NCBI GenBank assembly: GCA_004212795.1
Contig: SHBR01000002.1
Span: 23,958-87,957 of the forward strand
Length of the DNA: 64,000 nucleotides
From: Candidatus Thioglobus sp.
GTDB lineage: Bacteria > Pseudomonadota > Gammaproteobacteria > Arenicellales > UBA868
Direction of reading: 5' to 3'
The position numbers were made by a program, and so were the translations under genes. Numbering within the stretch: the stretch's first letter is position 1; every line of letters starts with the position of its first letter. This document shows positions 22,671 to 41,780 of this stretch, piece by piece. The notes below the pieces were generated by a model. It saw only the letters and a list, made by a program, of their open reading frames with translations, ran no database searches and was not told the DNA's origin.

Positions 22671-23852
22671 TTAATCGATCACGATCAATTCCCGGTGAAC
22701 ATCGCAAAGACGCTCGCCGCCATTTTCTGTCACCACAAATGGCTCAGAAACGGCTGCGCCAATCGACTCTAGCCAGACACCCGATTGAAAATGAAAACAC
22801 ATACCGCTTTGCAGCACTGTTTTATCCCCCGGACGAAGACTTGCCGTTCGCTCACCCCAATCTGGCGGATAATTGACGCCGATCGAATAACCGACCCGAC
22901 TTTCTTTTTGGTAACCGTTGCGATTGAGCACTTTCTGCCACACCGCCTCAACAGCTTCGCAGGTGACGCCTGGTCGCGCAACGTCTAACGCTGCATCAAC
23001 GCCTTCCACAATCGTCTCGGTTAATTTGGTGACATCCGCTGGTGGCCGTCCCAGATAAAGTGTGCGCGTCAACGGAGCCTGATAATGATGCCGCGCACCG
23101 CCCAACTCCATCATCACCAACGTATCGTTGGGTAAAGGATGTTCCGACCATGTCAGGTGAGGCGTGCTGGTGCCCTCACCGACCTGTATCAGGGGGCACA
23201 AGCTTGAGTAATTTCCATATCGCCCCTCAACTCCCATAACCTGAGCGTGATAGACCTCTGCAATGATCTCGTATTCCGGCACCCCCGGCGCGACCTTTTC
23301 AATCGCCCGATTCATAACCGCGCTCACGGTCTGTCCGGCCTCACGCATATAAGCAAGCTCAGCATCTGATTTGACTAAACGCTCCCAATTCACCAACTGC
23401 TTTGTGTCACTAATTTTTGCATTGGGGAGCCCTTCTGAGAGATGCGCATGCGCGCGGGCGGTGTAGTAGTGGGCGTCGAGTTCGACGCCAATGCGATGGC
23501 TTGCCCAGCCACGCCGGGTGATCAGTTCCGCCAGATCATCATAGGGATGTTCAGTCGGGTGATGAATTAAGGTCTCGGAGAAGGTGGTGATGTTTTCAGG
23601 CGGCATATCGGTGGTGATATGGGCGGCTTTCGCGTCCTGCGGACGACCAAACCAAATAGGCGCCTCTTCTTCAAGGTGAAGCAAAACAGCTTGGGGCGTA
23701 TAAAAAGACCATCCGTCAAATCCAGTCAGCCAATTCATATTCGCTGGGTCCTGGCAAATAATCAAATCAAAGCCTTGCTCTGCCATGCTTTGCTTAGTCT
23801 GAGCAATTCGACGGTCGTATTCAGACTTGGGGAACGGTTTGGTGTAATTCAT
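22671..23852 (-). CDS. doeA: M24-fold C-N hydrolase, ectoine hydrolase (DoeA/EutD)-like
   Basis: DLIICQDPANMNWLTGFDGWSFYTPQAVLLHL; STPHLTWSEHPLPND; YPPDWGERTASLRPGDKTVLQSGMCFHF; adjacent to doeB-like gene. Confidence 0.8.
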   Translation of the reverse strand: MNYTKPFPKSEYDRRIAQTKQSMAEQGFDLIICQDPANMNWLTGFDGWSFYTPQAVLLHLEEEAPIWFGRPQDAKAAHITTDMPPENITTFSETLIHHPTEHPYDDLAELITRRGWASHRIGVELDAHYYTARAHAHLSEGLPNAKISDTKQLVNWERLVKSDAELAYMREAGQTVSAVMNRAIEKVAPGVPEYEIIAEVYHAQVMGVEGRYGNYSSLCPLIQVGEGTSTPHLTWSEHPLPNDTLVMMELGGARHHYQAPLTRTLYLGRPPADVTKLTETIVEGVDAALDVARPGVTCEAVEAVWQKVLNRNGYQKESRVGYSIGVNYPPDWGERTASLRPGDKTVLQSGMCFHFQSGVWLESIGAAVSEPFVVTENGGERLCDVHRELIVID

Positions 23853-23895
23853 ATGTTCTCGGTAACGTTGGTTTGAGTCTCAGAAAAACTGATGC

Positions 23896-24888
23896 TTAAT
23901 CGACGATGGTCGCAATCACTGCCAAAAAATCACCCGGACGAATCAAACAGGGGAAGTGTCTTCCCATAAAAATGCCGTCTACTTTAGACCGGCACTCAAC
24001 AGGTGTCGTACCCGTCCTATCGGTGTCGTGAATCACGGCCAGAATATCGCCCGCGTTAATTTTAGCGCCAAGATCATGGCGCATCTCAATCAGTCCCCGA
24101 TGCTCGGAAGTAATAAAACATTCCGGATTCATCGTATCGAGATTGACAGACGCTCCTCGCTCCACATCACCCGCAAGAATACCGGCATGCTTTAAAACGT
24201 TTGAAATACCCCGTCGGGCAATTTGCACACTCGTTGCACTTGCAGAACCACCGCCACCCAACTCAGTGCTGACAAAAACCTTGCCCTGATTTTCGGCAGC
24301 GGTGTCGTATAAGTGGGCCGCATCAGGCTCAAGCAACATCAGCGTATATGGCGCATTAAATGCCTCCACCGCAGAAACGCAGCGCGCCTGTTGACCCTTG
24401 TCATCCAGGATATGTGCGGCTCCAAATGGCAAAAACTCCATCGTCTTGCCTCCTGAATGAATGTCAATCACAACGTCAGCCATCGGCAGCAATGTACGAG
24501 AAAAAAAGTCCGCGATGATCTGCGTGATCGTGCCATCGGGATCACCCGGAAAAACCCTGTTCATATTTCCGCCATCAATCCAGGAGGTACGCTTACCCGC
24601 TGTAAAAGCCGGGTAGTTCATTGCTGGCACGATGATGACGCGACCACTGATGTCATCCGCACTCAGCGAGTGCGTCATTCCCCAGAGTGCAATCGGCCCC
24701 TCGTATTCATCACCATGATTGGCGCCTGTGAGCAAAGCTGTCGGTCCGTTTCCATTTTTTATTACCGTAATCGGCACCATTACGGCCCCCCAGCCGGAGT
24801 CGTCACCTGAATAGGGCACCTTTAGAAATCCATGCTGGACACCGTCCCGCTCAAAATCCACTGTTGGATGAATTGGGTTATCTCTCAT
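23896..24888 (-). CDS. doeB: N-acetyl-diaminobutyrate deacetylase-like (DoeB/EutE), succinylglutamate desuccinylase/aspartoacylase family
   Basis: NPIHPTVDFERDGVQHGFLKVPYSGDDSGWGAVMVPITVIKNGNGPTALLTGANHGDEYEGPIALW; DIHSGGKTMEFLPF; ELGGGGSASA. Confidence 0.85.
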   Translation of the reverse strand: MRDNPIHPTVDFERDGVQHGFLKVPYSGDDSGWGAVMVPITVIKNGNGPTALLTGANHGDEYEGPIALWGMTHSLSADDISGRVIIVPAMNYPAFTAGKRTSWIDGGNMNRVFPGDPDGTITQIIADFFSRTLLPMADVVIDIHSGGKTMEFLPFGAAHILDDKGQQARCVSAVEAFNAPYTLMLLEPDAAHLYDTAAENQGKVFVSTELGGGGSASATSVQIARRGISNVLKHAGILAGDVERGASVNLDTMNPECFITSEHRGLIEMRHDLGAKINAGDILAVIHDTDRTGTTPVECRSKVDGIFMGRHFPCLIRPGDFLAVIATIVD

Positions 24889-30033: not shown

Positions 30034-31152
30034 CTATCGGATTTCACAAACCAAAGGTCCGAGGACGTCCATCAAAGGCTCGACTCCCAATCCCGGCGCT
30101 GATGGTGCAGCCATGTAACCACGCCCCATCTCGGGACCCCCCTCAGCAATCGCTCGACTCGCGTATTCGTGGAACGCGGACGACTGAAAATGAAAGGCCG
30201 GCGGGGTCGACTGGGCGAGATGAGCAATTGCTGATGTGGCGATCTCCCCGCCCCAACTGTCTTCAATCGTCATCACAATACCAAGATGAACACATAAATC
30301 TCGAACCTGACGCGCGCGGGTAAGACCGCCCATCCGATTGATCTTGAGATTAATCAGATCCATCGCGTTATCCTGAAATCCGCGCAACAAAACCGCCAAT
30401 CCATCCATGCATTCATCCAGAATGAAGGGCAGATCGGTATGTTGGCGCACCGCAAAGCATTCCTCATAACTTAGACAAGGCTGCTCTATAAAGCATGACA
30501 GCTGTTGCTCCTGAAACATTTGCTGAACTGCACCCACAACACGCAAAGCCTCATGCTGCTTCCACCCAGTGTTTGCATCTGCATCCACAACATCACCTGG
30601 CTGCATGACATCAAGAATTTGCCGAAAGCGCTCGATATCCGTATCCGGATTTTCTCCAACCTTTATCTGAAAATGATCAAAACCTTGTTCTCGATACTCT
30701 ACAAACCGGTCAGCCATCAGTTTAGGGTCCGCGCGAGGAACAACTTTAAAAAGGGTGACCTGCTCCTGTAGTTTGCCGCCCAGTAACTGATAAGCCGGCA
30801 GGCCCGTGGCTTTACCTAGAATATCCCAGCAGGCCATATCGATAGCCGACTTGACATACGGATGCCCCTTTAACAACTCATCCATCTTCAGGTTAATGCT
30901 GTCGAGATGGGTGGGATCCTCGCCAATCAGGCCAGGTGCCAGTATGGAGACCCCCGTTCGCACCCCCTCAGCATACGCCGCCAAATACGAAGGGCCCAGT
31001 GGACAACTTTCTCCGACACCGGTTATTCCTTCATCGGTGTCCACCAAAACCACAGTGCTATCGAATGATGAAAATGATTGGGTCGACCAACTATACGATC
31101 CTTCTTTCATCGGCAAATCGACCTGGAAAACCCGGATTCTAGAAATTTTCAT
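30034..31152 (-). CDS. Mandelate racemase/muconate lactonizing enzyme family (resembles hydroxyproline-betaine epimerase / cis-3-hydroxyproline dehydratase group)
   Basis: GVGESCPLGPSY, KSAIDMACWDILGK, DHFQIKVGENPDTD (KxK-like), DVVDADANTGW, FIEQPCLSYEE, ILDECMD, MTIEDSWGGEI. Confidence 0.85.
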   Translation of the reverse strand: MKISRIRVFQVDLPMKEGSYSWSTQSFSSFDSTVVLVDTDEGITGVGESCPLGPSYLAAYAEGVRTGVSILAPGLIGEDPTHLDSINLKMDELLKGHPYVKSAIDMACWDILGKATGLPAYQLLGGKLQEQVTLFKVVPRADPKLMADRFVEYREQGFDHFQIKVGENPDTDIERFRQILDVMQPGDVVDADANTGWKQHEALRVVGAVQQMFQEQQLSCFIEQPCLSYEECFAVRQHTDLPFILDECMDGLAVLLRGFQDNAMDLINLKINRMGGLTRARQVRDLCVHLGIVMTIEDSWGGEIATSAIAHLAQSTPPAFHFQSSAFHEYASRAIAEGGPEMGRGYMAAPSAPGLGVEPLMDVLGPLVCEIR

Positions 31153-38515: not shown

Positions 38516-39532
38516 ATGAGTTCAACGGAAAACACGAGTTTTAATATTCGGGTGTCATCCACCGATGAGGTGTTTGAGGTTCCGGAAAATCGAACTATTC
38601 TTCATGTTTTATATGAGAATGGTTATGAAGTTCCGCTCGACTGCTCCAATGGCCGTTGCGGAACGTGTCGCACGCGCTATCTCTCTGGCGAGATCGATCA
38701 TCGAGACACTGTGCTCGAAGACTCTGAGCGTTCCGAGTTTCTAACGGTCTGCGTCTCGCGCGCGACTGGCGGAGAAGTCGTTCTTGATCTAGAGCCTCCG
38801 GTCGATTCTGCTCAACCCATCACTCGACCCATCGCGGTTGTTAACGCGCCGGTGTGTGTTGCATGCCTAAATTGCGTTCGATTCTGCACGTTTGGCGCAG
38901 CCAAAATTGATAGTGGTCTGGTGGGGGTTGGCGGGATTCAAGGTGCCGCGATAGTTGATAAAGACTTATGCACGGGCTGTGGATTATGTGCCGCAGCTTG
39001 TCCTACCGGGGCAATCGAAATGAACGTCAATACTCATGACGTTGTTATTGATGCCATCGACCAGTTCAGTTCCGGACCGGCTTCTCAGCAAAATCAACTG
39101 AGTAAGACCCCGAACTCCCTGGTCATTTTTACCTGTCCGCAATCTCGGCAGACCACACAAGAAGTTTGCGCTGGTGATTCCCGTACCAAAAAGACCGATG
39201 CTGCGACCCATGTTGTTGAAGTCCCCTGTTCCGGACGAGTCGATACGCTCCAACTTATGCATGCTTTCGAGAAAGGCGCTGATGGGGTAATGGTGGTCGG
39301 GTGTCAGCCCGGGGAGTGTTACTTTAATACCGGAAATTTACATGTGAAACAGCGGGTAGACCGTGTGTCACAATGGCTGGATAAATGCGGCCTTCATCAT
39401 GACCGGGTCATGATGACTCACATCACGCCCGGCGATCACAAGGGACTTGCCAACGCCATCGACTCACTGGATGAAAAGACTCAAGCGCTCGGATTAACCC
39501 CGCTGCATCAAGTCGCGACTGACAGAACATAA
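38516..39532 (+). CDS. Fused iron-sulfur protein: plant-type [2Fe-2S] ferredoxin + two [4Fe-4S] motifs + MvhD/hydrogenase-iron-sulfur-subunit-like domain
   Basis: CSNGRCGTC...C; CVACLNCVRFC; CTGCGLCAAACP; VEVPCSGRVDTLQLMHAFEKGADGVMVVGCQPGECYFNTGNLHVKQRV. Confidence 0.88.
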   Translation: MSSTENTSFNIRVSSTDEVFEVPENRTILHVLYENGYEVPLDCSNGRCGTCRTRYLSGEIDHRDTVLEDSERSEFLTVCVSRATGGEVVLDLEPPVDSAQPITRPIAVVNAPVCVACLNCVRFCTFGAAKIDSGLVGVGGIQGAAIVDKDLCTGCGLCAAACPTGAIEMNVNTHDVVIDAIDQFSSGPASQQNQLSKTPNSLVIFTCPQSRQTTQEVCAGDSRTKKTDAATHVVEVPCSGRVDTLQLMHAFEKGADGVMVVGCQPGECYFNTGNLHVKQRVDRVSQWLDKCGLHHDRVMMTHITPGDHKGLANAIDSLDEKTQALGLTPLHQVATDRT

Positions 39533-39615
39533 CCTCTTATTCGAGATGATTAAGTAACTCATATCACCACGCTATTCGACGAACTAGCTCACAAGTAAAA
39601 TTTTCGAGAAAAATC

Positions 39616-40773
39616 ATGATTGTTGCCGAACAGAAGAAGTTGGAAGATATTCAGCGAATGCTGAAAGGTAAAAAAAAGGTTCTCACGGTAGGATGCGGAA
39701 CGTGCGTATCCGTATGTTTTGCCGGAGGACAAAAAGAGTCCAGCGCAATGGCGGCGACCTTGCGAACGGCGGCAGCGGCTAATGGCGAACAAATCGAAGT
39801 TGACGAAGCGACGGTTCAGCGACAGTGCGTGCAAGAGTTTGTAGCACCACTGGAGGAAAATATAGAGGAATATGACGCTGTATTGTCAATGGCCTGTGGT
39901 GTGGGTGTGCAAACACTTGCCGAAAAATATATGGACACCCCAATCCTTCCCGGACTCGATACTAACTTTATGGGCCAACCGACCGAACCGGGGGTGTGGG
40001 AGGAGCGGTGCGTCGGTTGTGGAAATTGCGTCTTGGAGTACACCGGAGGCTTATGCCCGATTACCCGCTGCCCTAAACAACTGCAAAATGGTCCGTGCGG
40101 CGGATCAGAGGGTGGCATGTGTGAAGTCGATCCCAACATTCCTTGCATCTGGTCGAAAATCTGGACATTGTTAGACCGTCAGGGCATTGCTGACACACTA
40201 ATGGATATTCAACCCCCCAAAGACTGGTCGACAAGCCGGGGCGGCAGTATGCGGCGAGTGGTCGTCAGCAGCGACCTCAGCCAACAAAGTGCCCGGGCTG
40301 CCGGCGACAAAATCAAGGCAGAAAATACAACACCGACCGCCCCTGCCACGGATTCAACAGCACCCTCTTCCACACCTGACCACGAGTCGGTTCTTGACGC
40401 CTCCTGGCATCAGGTCTGCAGCCTTTCGGATCTCCCAGAAGGCAAGCTTCGTCGATTTACCGTTTCTGGAGTCGACGTCATGCTGACCAACCTCGGGGAC
40501 TGCATCCGCGCTTTTCCACCCACCTGCCCACACCTCGCCGAGCCCTTAATCGACTCTGGCGTTCTGAGGGATGGGTTACTGACCTGCACAAAACATTTGT
40601 GGAAATGGGATCTACGCAGTGGAGAAATGAAAGGCGCCGCCGAGCGGCCCGTTGAGATGTATGAATCACAACTTAAAAACAATAATGTCTTCGTCAGAAT
40701 GGAATCGGAAATTATTTATGATTACGAAGAAGATGATGACCTCGATGAAGACGACTTCTTTAACGCAGATTGA
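39616..40773 (+). CDS. MetV-like methylenetetrahydrofolate reductase C-terminal/iron-sulfur protein fused to a Rieske [2Fe-2S] domain
   Basis: MetV motif CVGCGNCVLEYTGGLCPITRCPKQLQNGPCGGSEGGMCEVDPNIPCIW; Rieske CPH-x17-CTKH (CPHLAEPLIDSGVLRDGLLTCTKHLWKWDL). Confidence 0.87.
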   Translation: MIVAEQKKLEDIQRMLKGKKKVLTVGCGTCVSVCFAGGQKESSAMAATLRTAAAANGEQIEVDEATVQRQCVQEFVAPLEENIEEYDAVLSMACGVGVQTLAEKYMDTPILPGLDTNFMGQPTEPGVWEERCVGCGNCVLEYTGGLCPITRCPKQLQNGPCGGSEGGMCEVDPNIPCIWSKIWTLLDRQGIADTLMDIQPPKDWSTSRGGSMRRVVVSSDLSQQSARAAGDKIKAENTTPTAPATDSTAPSSTPDHESVLDASWHQVCSLSDLPEGKLRRFTVSGVDVMLTNLGDCIRAFPPTCPHLAEPLIDSGVLRDGLLTCTKHLWKWDLRSGEMKGAAERPVEMYESQLKNNNVFVRMESEIIYDYEEDDDLDEDDFFNAD

Positions 40774-40784
40774 GTAACAATCCC

Positions 40785-41780
40785 ATGGCAACCAATCCTG
40801 AAATTCAGTCACAAGAAGCTCAAAAGTCAGGAAGCAATCTTGAGCGGGTACTCGCCGCAGGCCACTTTGCTGTAACTGGAGAACTCGGTCCTCCGAAACA
40901 TATGGATCAGGCTTTCATTGACCGGAAAATAAATCTTCTAAAAGGTGTCGTTGATGCCGCAAACGTCACTGACAATCAAACAGGCATTGTTCGGCTGAGT
41001 AGTATTGCGACCGGTATCTATATGGCCCAACAAGGTTTAGAGCCCGTGATTCAGATGACCTGCCGCGACCGAAACCGTCTTGCCATTCAAAGTGACCTAA
41101 TGGGCGCCTATTTTCACGGGATACGAAACGTCCTGTGTCTTTCCGGTGACCATCAATCTTTCGGAAATCATCCCGGCGCCAAAAACGTCCAGGACATTGA
41201 TTCAATGCAACTCATTCAAATGATTAAAGAGATGCGGGACAAGAACCAGTTTCAGTGTGGTGATGAAATTAAAGGCGGCGGGCCGAAACTCCTTATCGGT
41301 GGTGCAGGCAGTCCCTTTTCAGAACCAATCTCCTTTCGACCCCTTCGAATCGCCAAAAAAATGGCGGCGGGCGTTGACTTTATTCAAACCCAAATGATTT
41401 TTGATATGGACATTTTTAAACAGTTCATGGCAAAGCTGGTTGATTTAGGCGTCACGGAAAAGGTCCATATCTTGGCAGGTATCGGGCCATTAAAAAGCAG
41501 TCCAATGGCACGATTCCTGAACGATCAGATTCCTGGAATCGTGATTCCGGATGAACTGCTTAAGCGTATGGACGGAGCCGTTCAGGGAATCGATGAAAAC
41601 GATAAAGACGCACGCCGTGATGCCTGGCGCGCTGAAGGTCAAAACATCTGCATTGAACAGATCGAGCAGCTTCAGGAAATCGAGGGCGTGGCAGGCGTAC
41701 ACATTATGGCGATCGAATGGGAAGCCGCGATAAGACCAATCGTCGAACGAGCGGGCTTATTCCCCCGACCACAAGTCTAA
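40785..41780 (+). CDS. metF: Methylenetetrahydrofolate reductase, MetF family (acetogen-like short form)
   Basis: FAVTGELGPPKHMD, VTDNQTGIVRLSS, VIQMTCRDRNRLAIQSDLMGAYFHGIRNVLCLSGDHQSFG, FIQTQMIFDMDIFKQFM; TTG at 40770 is an alternative start overlapping the upstream stop. Confidence 0.9.
   Translation: MATNPEIQSQEAQKSGSNLERVLAAGHFAVTGELGPPKHMDQAFIDRKINLLKGVVDAANVTDNQTGIVRLSSIATGIYMAQQGLEPVIQMTCRDRNRLAIQSDLMGAYFHGIRNVLCLSGDHQSFGNHPGAKNVQDIDSMQLIQMIKEMRDKNQFQCGDEIKGGGPKLLIGGAGSPFSEPISFRPLRIAKKMAAGVDFIQTQMIFDMDIFKQFMAKLVDLGVTEKVHILAGIGPLKSSPMARFLNDQIPGIVIPDELLKRMDGAVQGIDENDKDARRDAWRAEGQNICIEQIEQLQEIEGVAGVHIMAIEWEAAIRPIVERAGLFPRPQV

Follow-up and report, generated by a model that had tools for sequence, protein, structure and literature searches.

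The analyzed DNA (the window) is a stretch of 64,000 nucleotides from contig C12 of a marine bacterium's 2.04 Mb genome assembly that is 78% complete (G000). Three consecutive genes on its plus strand encode a [2Fe-2S]/2x[4Fe-4S]/MvhD fusion, a MetV with a Rieske domain and a short MetF, an assignment that had been made from the letters alone (the sequence-only reading) and with which the open reading frames, the Pfam matches and the motifs agree:

38516..39532, plus strand: gene 1, Fer2 - 2x[4Fe-4S] - FlpD/MvhD fusion, 338 aa (open reading frame and Pfam)
38552..38767, plus strand: Fer2 domain of gene 1, residues 13-84 (Pfam); closest solved structure 2pia, C-terminal [2Fe-2S] domain of phthalate dioxygenase reductase (PDR)
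38834..39022, plus strand: di-[4Fe-4S] stretch of gene 1, residues 107-169, corresponding to the C-terminal ferredoxin part of HdrA (Pfam and HdrA2 model)
39122..39493, plus strand: FlpD/MvhD domain of gene 1, residues 203-326 (Pfam); invariant Cys 207, 238, 263, and 268
39616..40773, plus strand: gene 2, MetV-Rieske fusion, 385 aa (open reading frame and Pfam)
39949..40230, plus strand: DUF5981 (MetV iron-sulfur / MTHFR C-terminal) domain of gene 2, residues 112-205 (Pfam)
40402..40638, plus strand: Rieske domain of gene 2, residues 263-341, motif CPHLAEPL..CTKH (Pfam); preceded by a low-confidence linker and followed by an acidic tail
40785..41780, plus strand: gene 3, short MetF, ATG start preferred (the open reading frame 40770-41780 from TTG has 336 aa)

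The Pfam domains of all three proteins score above the curated cut-offs and include a Fer4 match at residues 146-168 of gene 1 and an MTHFR domain at residues 24-329 of gene 3. The Fer2 cluster motif (C43-C48-C51-C79), the two CxxCxxCxxxC motifs of gene 1 (at 114 and 152) and the Rieske motif of gene 2 (CPH..CTKH, at 304) are intact, and every cysteine position that is invariant across 19 aligned MetVs is kept in the window MetV. Comparison with relatives makes ATG 40785 the more likely start of MetF than TTG 40770; genes 1 and 2 are separated by 83 bp, and genes 2 and 3 by 11 bp if MetF starts at the ATG. The single-chain structure models of genes 1 and 2 both have low overall confidence (pLDDT 62), and the predicted gene 1 fold matches MvhD (5odc_D, TM(target) 0.85).

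The module genes are genuine and evolve under purifying selection. In comparisons with the closest relatives, dN/dS ranges from ~0.02 to 0.1 across the module, with a dN of 0.005 versus a dS of 0.073 for gene 1 and a dN of 0.007 versus a dS of 0.295 for MetF. The same domain architecture is found in other genomes at 47-81% identity, and because of this recurrence and of dN values far below dS the architecture is not due to chance.

The distribution of the module was analyzed with a MetV-Rieske query against 274 genomes of the class, 399 genomes of the phylum and 41 relatives, and with a gene 1 query run over 85,462 species genomes, a scan from which the numbers of loci are lower bounds. A partial or fuller MetV-Rieske is present in 12 out of 20 genus members, the window genome included. 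The three genes are intact in eight further genomes of the genus and frameshifted in a ninth, and outside the genus the intact module was found in at least two distant loci, one in another family of the class (G214) and one in a Hyphomicrobiales MAG (L071). The conservation as a unit in the eight genomes, G214 and L071 is the outcome of the joint neighborhood search that the sequence-only reading had proposed. Two loci, in MarineAlpha3 (L073) and in a Rhodospirillaceae genome (L074), carry gene 1 and MetF together with a MetV that stops short of a Rieske domain. The order gene 1-MetV-MetF is kept in the eight further genus genomes, G214, L071, and L074, and gene 1 orthologues with a Fer2 domain occur in the genus, G214, L071, L073, and L074. 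Among the matches listed in the gene 1 scan, most other loci are HdrA-FlpD-MetV-MetF-HdrCB sets or parts of them, that is, type IV enzymes, and the nearest named records to the window genome among the matches listed are MAGs labelled Proteobacteria, Acidiferrobacteraceae or Arenicellales. No full module was found at E <= 1e-30 in a 387-genome sample of the class of G311, viral contigs contained no relative of the module, and 28 partial matches on plasmids included none over 80% of the query.

Two irregularities were observed among these loci. The MetV-Rieske frame is broken between residues 284 and 311 in two UBA7447 loci (L053 and L062), either by an assembly error or in reality. In L074, the C-terminal tails of gene 1 and MetV are alike (EDALLAELGLI and EDAFLKELGLS) and possibly form a docking peptide.

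Published MetFs have been divided into types I to IV (PMC8760232). The window MetF scores 76 bits against TIGR00676, the model of the type I NADH-dependent MetF, far under the cut-off of 293.7. A MetF (PF02219) stands beside a MetV (PF12225) with conserved iron-sulfur cysteines, which places the MetVF catalytic core of type II (MetVF alone) and type III (MetVF-RnfC2) in the window; in contrast to both types, the module has an extra Rieske domain and gene 1. RnfC2, the partner in type III, has no domain in the three module proteins (Pfam) and none in the neighboring open reading frames as read. The closest likeness is to the type IV enzyme (HdrCBA-MvhD-MetVF) of Moorella thermoacetica and Sporomusa ovata (PMC8760232, PMC9430772), with which MetV and MetF are orthologous and their clustering is conserved; the window MetV is 55-62% and the window MetF ~60-65% identical to proteobacterial type IV proteins. 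The module keeps the MvhD domain and the C-terminal ferredoxin stretch of HdrA as in type IV. Unlike type IV, the window cluster lacks the HdrA flavin core, HdrB and HdrC, carries in addition a PDR-type [2Fe-2S] domain on gene 1 and a Rieske ferredoxin on MetV, and belongs to a predicted aerobic host.

The absence of HdrA, HdrB, HdrC, Rnf and hydrogenase genes from the window had been claimed from the sequence and was upheld with one amendment. HdrCB gave no tblastn match within the 64-kb window and no Rnf or hydrogenase genes appear in its list of open reading frames, but the HdrA query had a sole match inside gene 1, to the C-terminal ferredoxin stretch (query positions 1267-1344), so that, of HdrA, the core is what is absent. 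Residues 107-326 of gene 1 match positions 572-772 of the HdrA2 model. In a tree of 40 MetV rows, the Fer2-linked MetVs form a single clade (support 100/100) inside the type IV MetVs, and the sister of this clade is the type IV MetV of G686, a genome of the same order (support 97/94). A full type IV set (HdrA-MvhD-MetV-MetF-HdrCB) is present in G678, which belongs to the same family as the window genome, type IV genes are also found in G686 and G265, and G663, a member of the same genus, contains a type IV MetV-MetF on a short contig. By these homologies the module derives from the type IV HdrABC-MvhD-MetVF complex and is not an isolated invention. In the simplest history, a type IV complex would have lost the HdrA flavin core and HdrBC, gained the PDR-type [2Fe-2S] domain on gene 1, and later the Rieske ferredoxin on MetV. 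Type IV with Hdr, Fer2-MvhD without Rieske and Fer2-MvhD with Rieske would thus represent a natural evolutionary series. A tree of Rieske domains has too little resolution to show a single origin of the fusion or a donor oxygenase.

Both added domains resemble components of Rieske-oxygenase electron chains, in which an oxygenase-type Rieske ferredoxin and a PDR-type [2Fe-2S] likewise occur. Residues 3-92 of gene 1 match phthalate dioxygenase reductase (2pia, E 1.9e-22), and by this match the [2Fe-2S] domain is of the PDR type. Sequence comparison pairs the Rieske domain with oxygenase-type Rieske ferredoxins, its predicted fold, modelled fairly confidently (pLDDT blocks 64-91), matches the oxygenase ferredoxins 1fqt, 5bok, and 2qpz (TM(target) 0.82-0.88) well above b6f (8hn2), and a motif check found no bc1-type disulfide motifs in it; on sequence and model, the domain is an oxygenase-type ferredoxin and not of the bc1 type. 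The preceding residues 195-257 of gene 2 are modelled at pLDDT < 50, as would suit a mobile tether of the Rieske domain. Both window domains are homologous to phthalate dioxygenase reductase (2pia) and Rieske-type ferredoxins (1fqt, 1vm9) by sequence and predicted fold. Unlike in the oxygenase chains, the domains are fused to MvhD and MetV, and the module lacks an FMN/NAD domain and an oxygenase: Pfam identified no NAD(P)H-binding or flavin reductase domain in the three proteins, and a query search of the window found no Rieske oxygenase.

The methylene/methyl-THF couple has a potential of -200 mV (PMC9430772, PMC8760232), and potentials of -174 mV for the PDR [2Fe-2S] (PMC4814904, PMC9044450) and -112 mV for the oxygenase Rieske ferredoxin ThnA3 (PMC4814904) were measured on relatives of the gene 1 Fer2 domain and the gene 2 Rieske domain, respectively. 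With these potentials of relatives, a two-electron transfer from methyl-THF under standard conditions costs ~+23 kJ/mol to NAD+ (-320 mV) and yields ~-5 kJ/mol to a PDR-type [2Fe-2S], and a chain of such carriers, near-isopotential with methyl-THF, fits an oxidation of methyl-THF without bifurcation. In the proposed mechanism, the MetF flavin would take two electrons from methyl-THF, as expected from the family, and these would move singly into the MetV clusters, the ligands of which are conserved, and exit through the tethered Rieske domain and/or gene 1 (the MvhD [2Fe-2S], the two [4Fe-4S] and the PDR-type [2Fe-2S]). Two domains of the Rieske-oxygenase-donor type would have taken the place of the HdrA flavin core and of HdrBC, to which the bifurcation proposed for type IV is ascribed. 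The Rieske domain would not be an obligatory electron exit because it is absent in L073 and L074. An iron-sulfur-wired oxidation of methyl-THF had been suggested before; the MetVF core with its iron-sulfur chain, kept as a unit, suits this suggestion and an osmolyte-demethylating genome, and the Rieske domain, one link of the suggested chain, is not essential to the module. Transfer to NAD+ by way of a separate flavoprotein reductase that works backwards is highly improbable: reductases of the Rieske-oxygenase NADH type exist in the genome, but the step is uphill by the amount given above and the module has neither an NAD-binding domain nor the HdrA flavin core.

MetF, MetV and MvhD are reversible carriers, and sequence does not set their direction. 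The genome offers several sources of methyl-THF, with six MttB/MtgB-family methyltransferases, 12 places with a GcvT domain above cut-off, and a cluster on contig C67 (L027:10725-17394) of MtgC-like, DUF1638, MTHFR-C, MetF2, pterin-binding (MtgD-like) and RamA genes that resembles the MtgBCD-MetF2 system of glycine-betaine demethylation (PMC12478193). The MetF2 of that system is a short MetF with an MTHFR-C iron-sulfur partner, like the window pair; unlike the window MetV, the MTHFR-C partner on C67 has no N-terminal MetV part, no Rieske and no MvhD, and the window MetF is ~41% identical to the C67-type MetF2 (orthologues L196 and L197). MtgC, MtgD-like, RamA and GcvT queries gave no tblastn match within the window, in line with the earlier statement that it holds no THF-dependent methyltransferase; the THF-linked methyltransferases sit elsewhere in the genome. 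Co-occurrence with fhs and GcvT/MttB-like genes had also been proposed as a check, of which the methyltransferase part was found and Fhs was not. An NADH-type MetF was likewise not found in the assembly, where the second MetF is the MetF2 on C67, and was detected in four out of 20 genus members but not in the other 16, several of which are incomplete. These absences, and those of reductases, are weak evidence because the genome is 78% complete.

Other genes of the window and the genus were also recorded. The window contains a DoeA-like gene (427 bits, below the cut-off of 613) beside a DoeB above cut-off at 22671-24888, indicative of ectoine catabolism, and a cis-3-hydroxy-L-proline dehydratase at 30034-31152. 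Several genus members (L189, L191-L195, and L198) encode yet another short MetF, the third, of 292-306 aa and with ~34% identity to that of the window. In the three loci read (L189, L191, and L193), its gene converges with that of a reductase of 433-457 aa that has NAD-binding and C-terminal Fer2 domains; the L193 reductase has a Trx-like [2Fe-2S] match. At C5:18686-20005 (L216:686-2005), the window genome retains this reductase together with, by reading, the gene on its far side, and lacks the third MetF.

The module of L073 adjoins URO-D/B12, pterin-binding and RACo genes and that of L071 lies near URO-D and B12-binding genes, which by annotation places these two alphaproteobacterial copies near corrinoid methyltransferase genes. 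In L071, the module is located between a molybdopterin oxidoreductase and ArsD, ArsA, URO-D and B12-binding genes, and a link to methylated arsenicals is possible. An oxidative direction is moderately, and in each case indirectly, supported by the supply from MttB, MtgCD-like and GcvT proteins, the corrinoid-methyltransferase neighbors in L073 and L071, and the lack of a detected NADH-type MetF; the physiological substrate would be methyl-THF from corrinoid or GcvT-type demethylation of osmolytes. The reverse, in which NADH would feed a Rieske-oxygenase-type reductase, the Fer2/Rieske domains and finally MetF to make methyl-THF for methionine synthesis, appears improbable. Electron flow from NADH to methylene-THF is downhill, two of the three Fer2 and NAD-binding reductases found in the window genome (on C21 and at C5:18686-20005, the third being beside the C5 oxygenase) have no adjacent oxygenase, and the NADH-type MetF was found neither in this genome (78% complete) nor in the majority of genus members. 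On the other side, methyl-THF can already come from the MtgCD-like genes and the six MttB, the surroundings of the module are catabolic or of the corrinoid-methyltransferase kind, and genus members without a detected module carry other MetFs. The module is probably an oxidative, iron-sulfur-wired methyl-THF:acceptor oxidoreductase derived from the type IV enzyme.

The candidate acceptor is narrowed by the Fer2 domain being of the PDR type and the Rieske domain of the oxygenase-ferredoxin type. Rieske oxygenases or their ferredoxins may tentatively be proposed as the likeliest acceptors; the oxidation of methyl groups would then be tied to the use of O2 with no need for NADH. The window genome has 15 places with a Rieske domain, seven of which were read as oxygenase alpha genes, and within the stretches read only the C5 oxygenase has an adjacent reductase. 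Behind the G214 module comes a transporter cluster and, ~16 kb away, a set of genes for a Rieske oxygenase, a ferredoxin, its own reductase, and PanB-like and GcvT-like proteins; the counterpart of this oxygenase cluster in the window genome is on C5. In some genus members, an oxygenase whose N-terminal half is GbcA-like and an OYE-type flavoprotein are encoded within ~10 kb of the module. Such proximity is weak and suggestive because the genome is rich in Rieske oxygenases, and co-location was rejected as proof of the acceptor, given the 15 Rieske places and the fact that the genus loci are not independent. Electron transfer to the quinone pool, with MvhD docking a membrane partner as proposed for S. 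ovata, is unlikely: the MvhD of S. ovata is mostly membrane-associated and was taken as the membrane linker of type IV (PMC9430772), and the reaction from methyl-THF to ubiquinone is strongly exergonic, but no membrane protein was seen to recur next to the module in the loci compared, the Rieske domain looks like an oxygenase ferredoxin and not like a bc1/b6f Rieske protein, and the Fer2 domain is similar to one by which a reductase docks soluble oxygenases.

The oxygenase clusters on C5 of the window genome (L026) and on C22 of G214 (L023 and L024) share a Tau/Ssu-type ABC transporter, TauE, a PanB-like hydroxymethyltransferase, a two-subunit Rieske oxygenase, a Rieske ferredoxin and a reductase, the GcvT-like gene being in the G214 cluster. 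A homarine/trigonelline pathway was considered for this cluster and dropped, as no supporting paper was found.

For aerobic marine bacteria, published work holds a paralogous MetF responsible for oxidizing the methyl-THF that betaine-type osmolytes yield (PMC12478193, PMC3160333). No paper with MetV and Rieske together was found in the open literature searched (preprints and most subscription-journal papers lie outside this scope), so the expectation of a complex not previously characterized holds within it. The module is proposed as a variant of MetVF, a putative 'type V' methylene-THF reductase, in which an anaerobe-type MetVF would be re-plumbed, with mid-potential carriers as judged by their relatives, and for which a concrete candidate acceptor can be named; NAD+ is an unfavorable acceptor at standard potentials. 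That methyl-THF and not NADH serves as the donor of a Rieske oxygenase, closing a redox loop in aerobic osmolyte catabolism, is a rather doubtful possibility; if true, methyl-THF derived from demethylation and oxidized to methylene-THF would supply the two electrons for the O2-dependent step of the oxygenase. Taken by its gene content, the module suggests a hitherto undescribed route by which aerobic bacteria would burn methyl groups.
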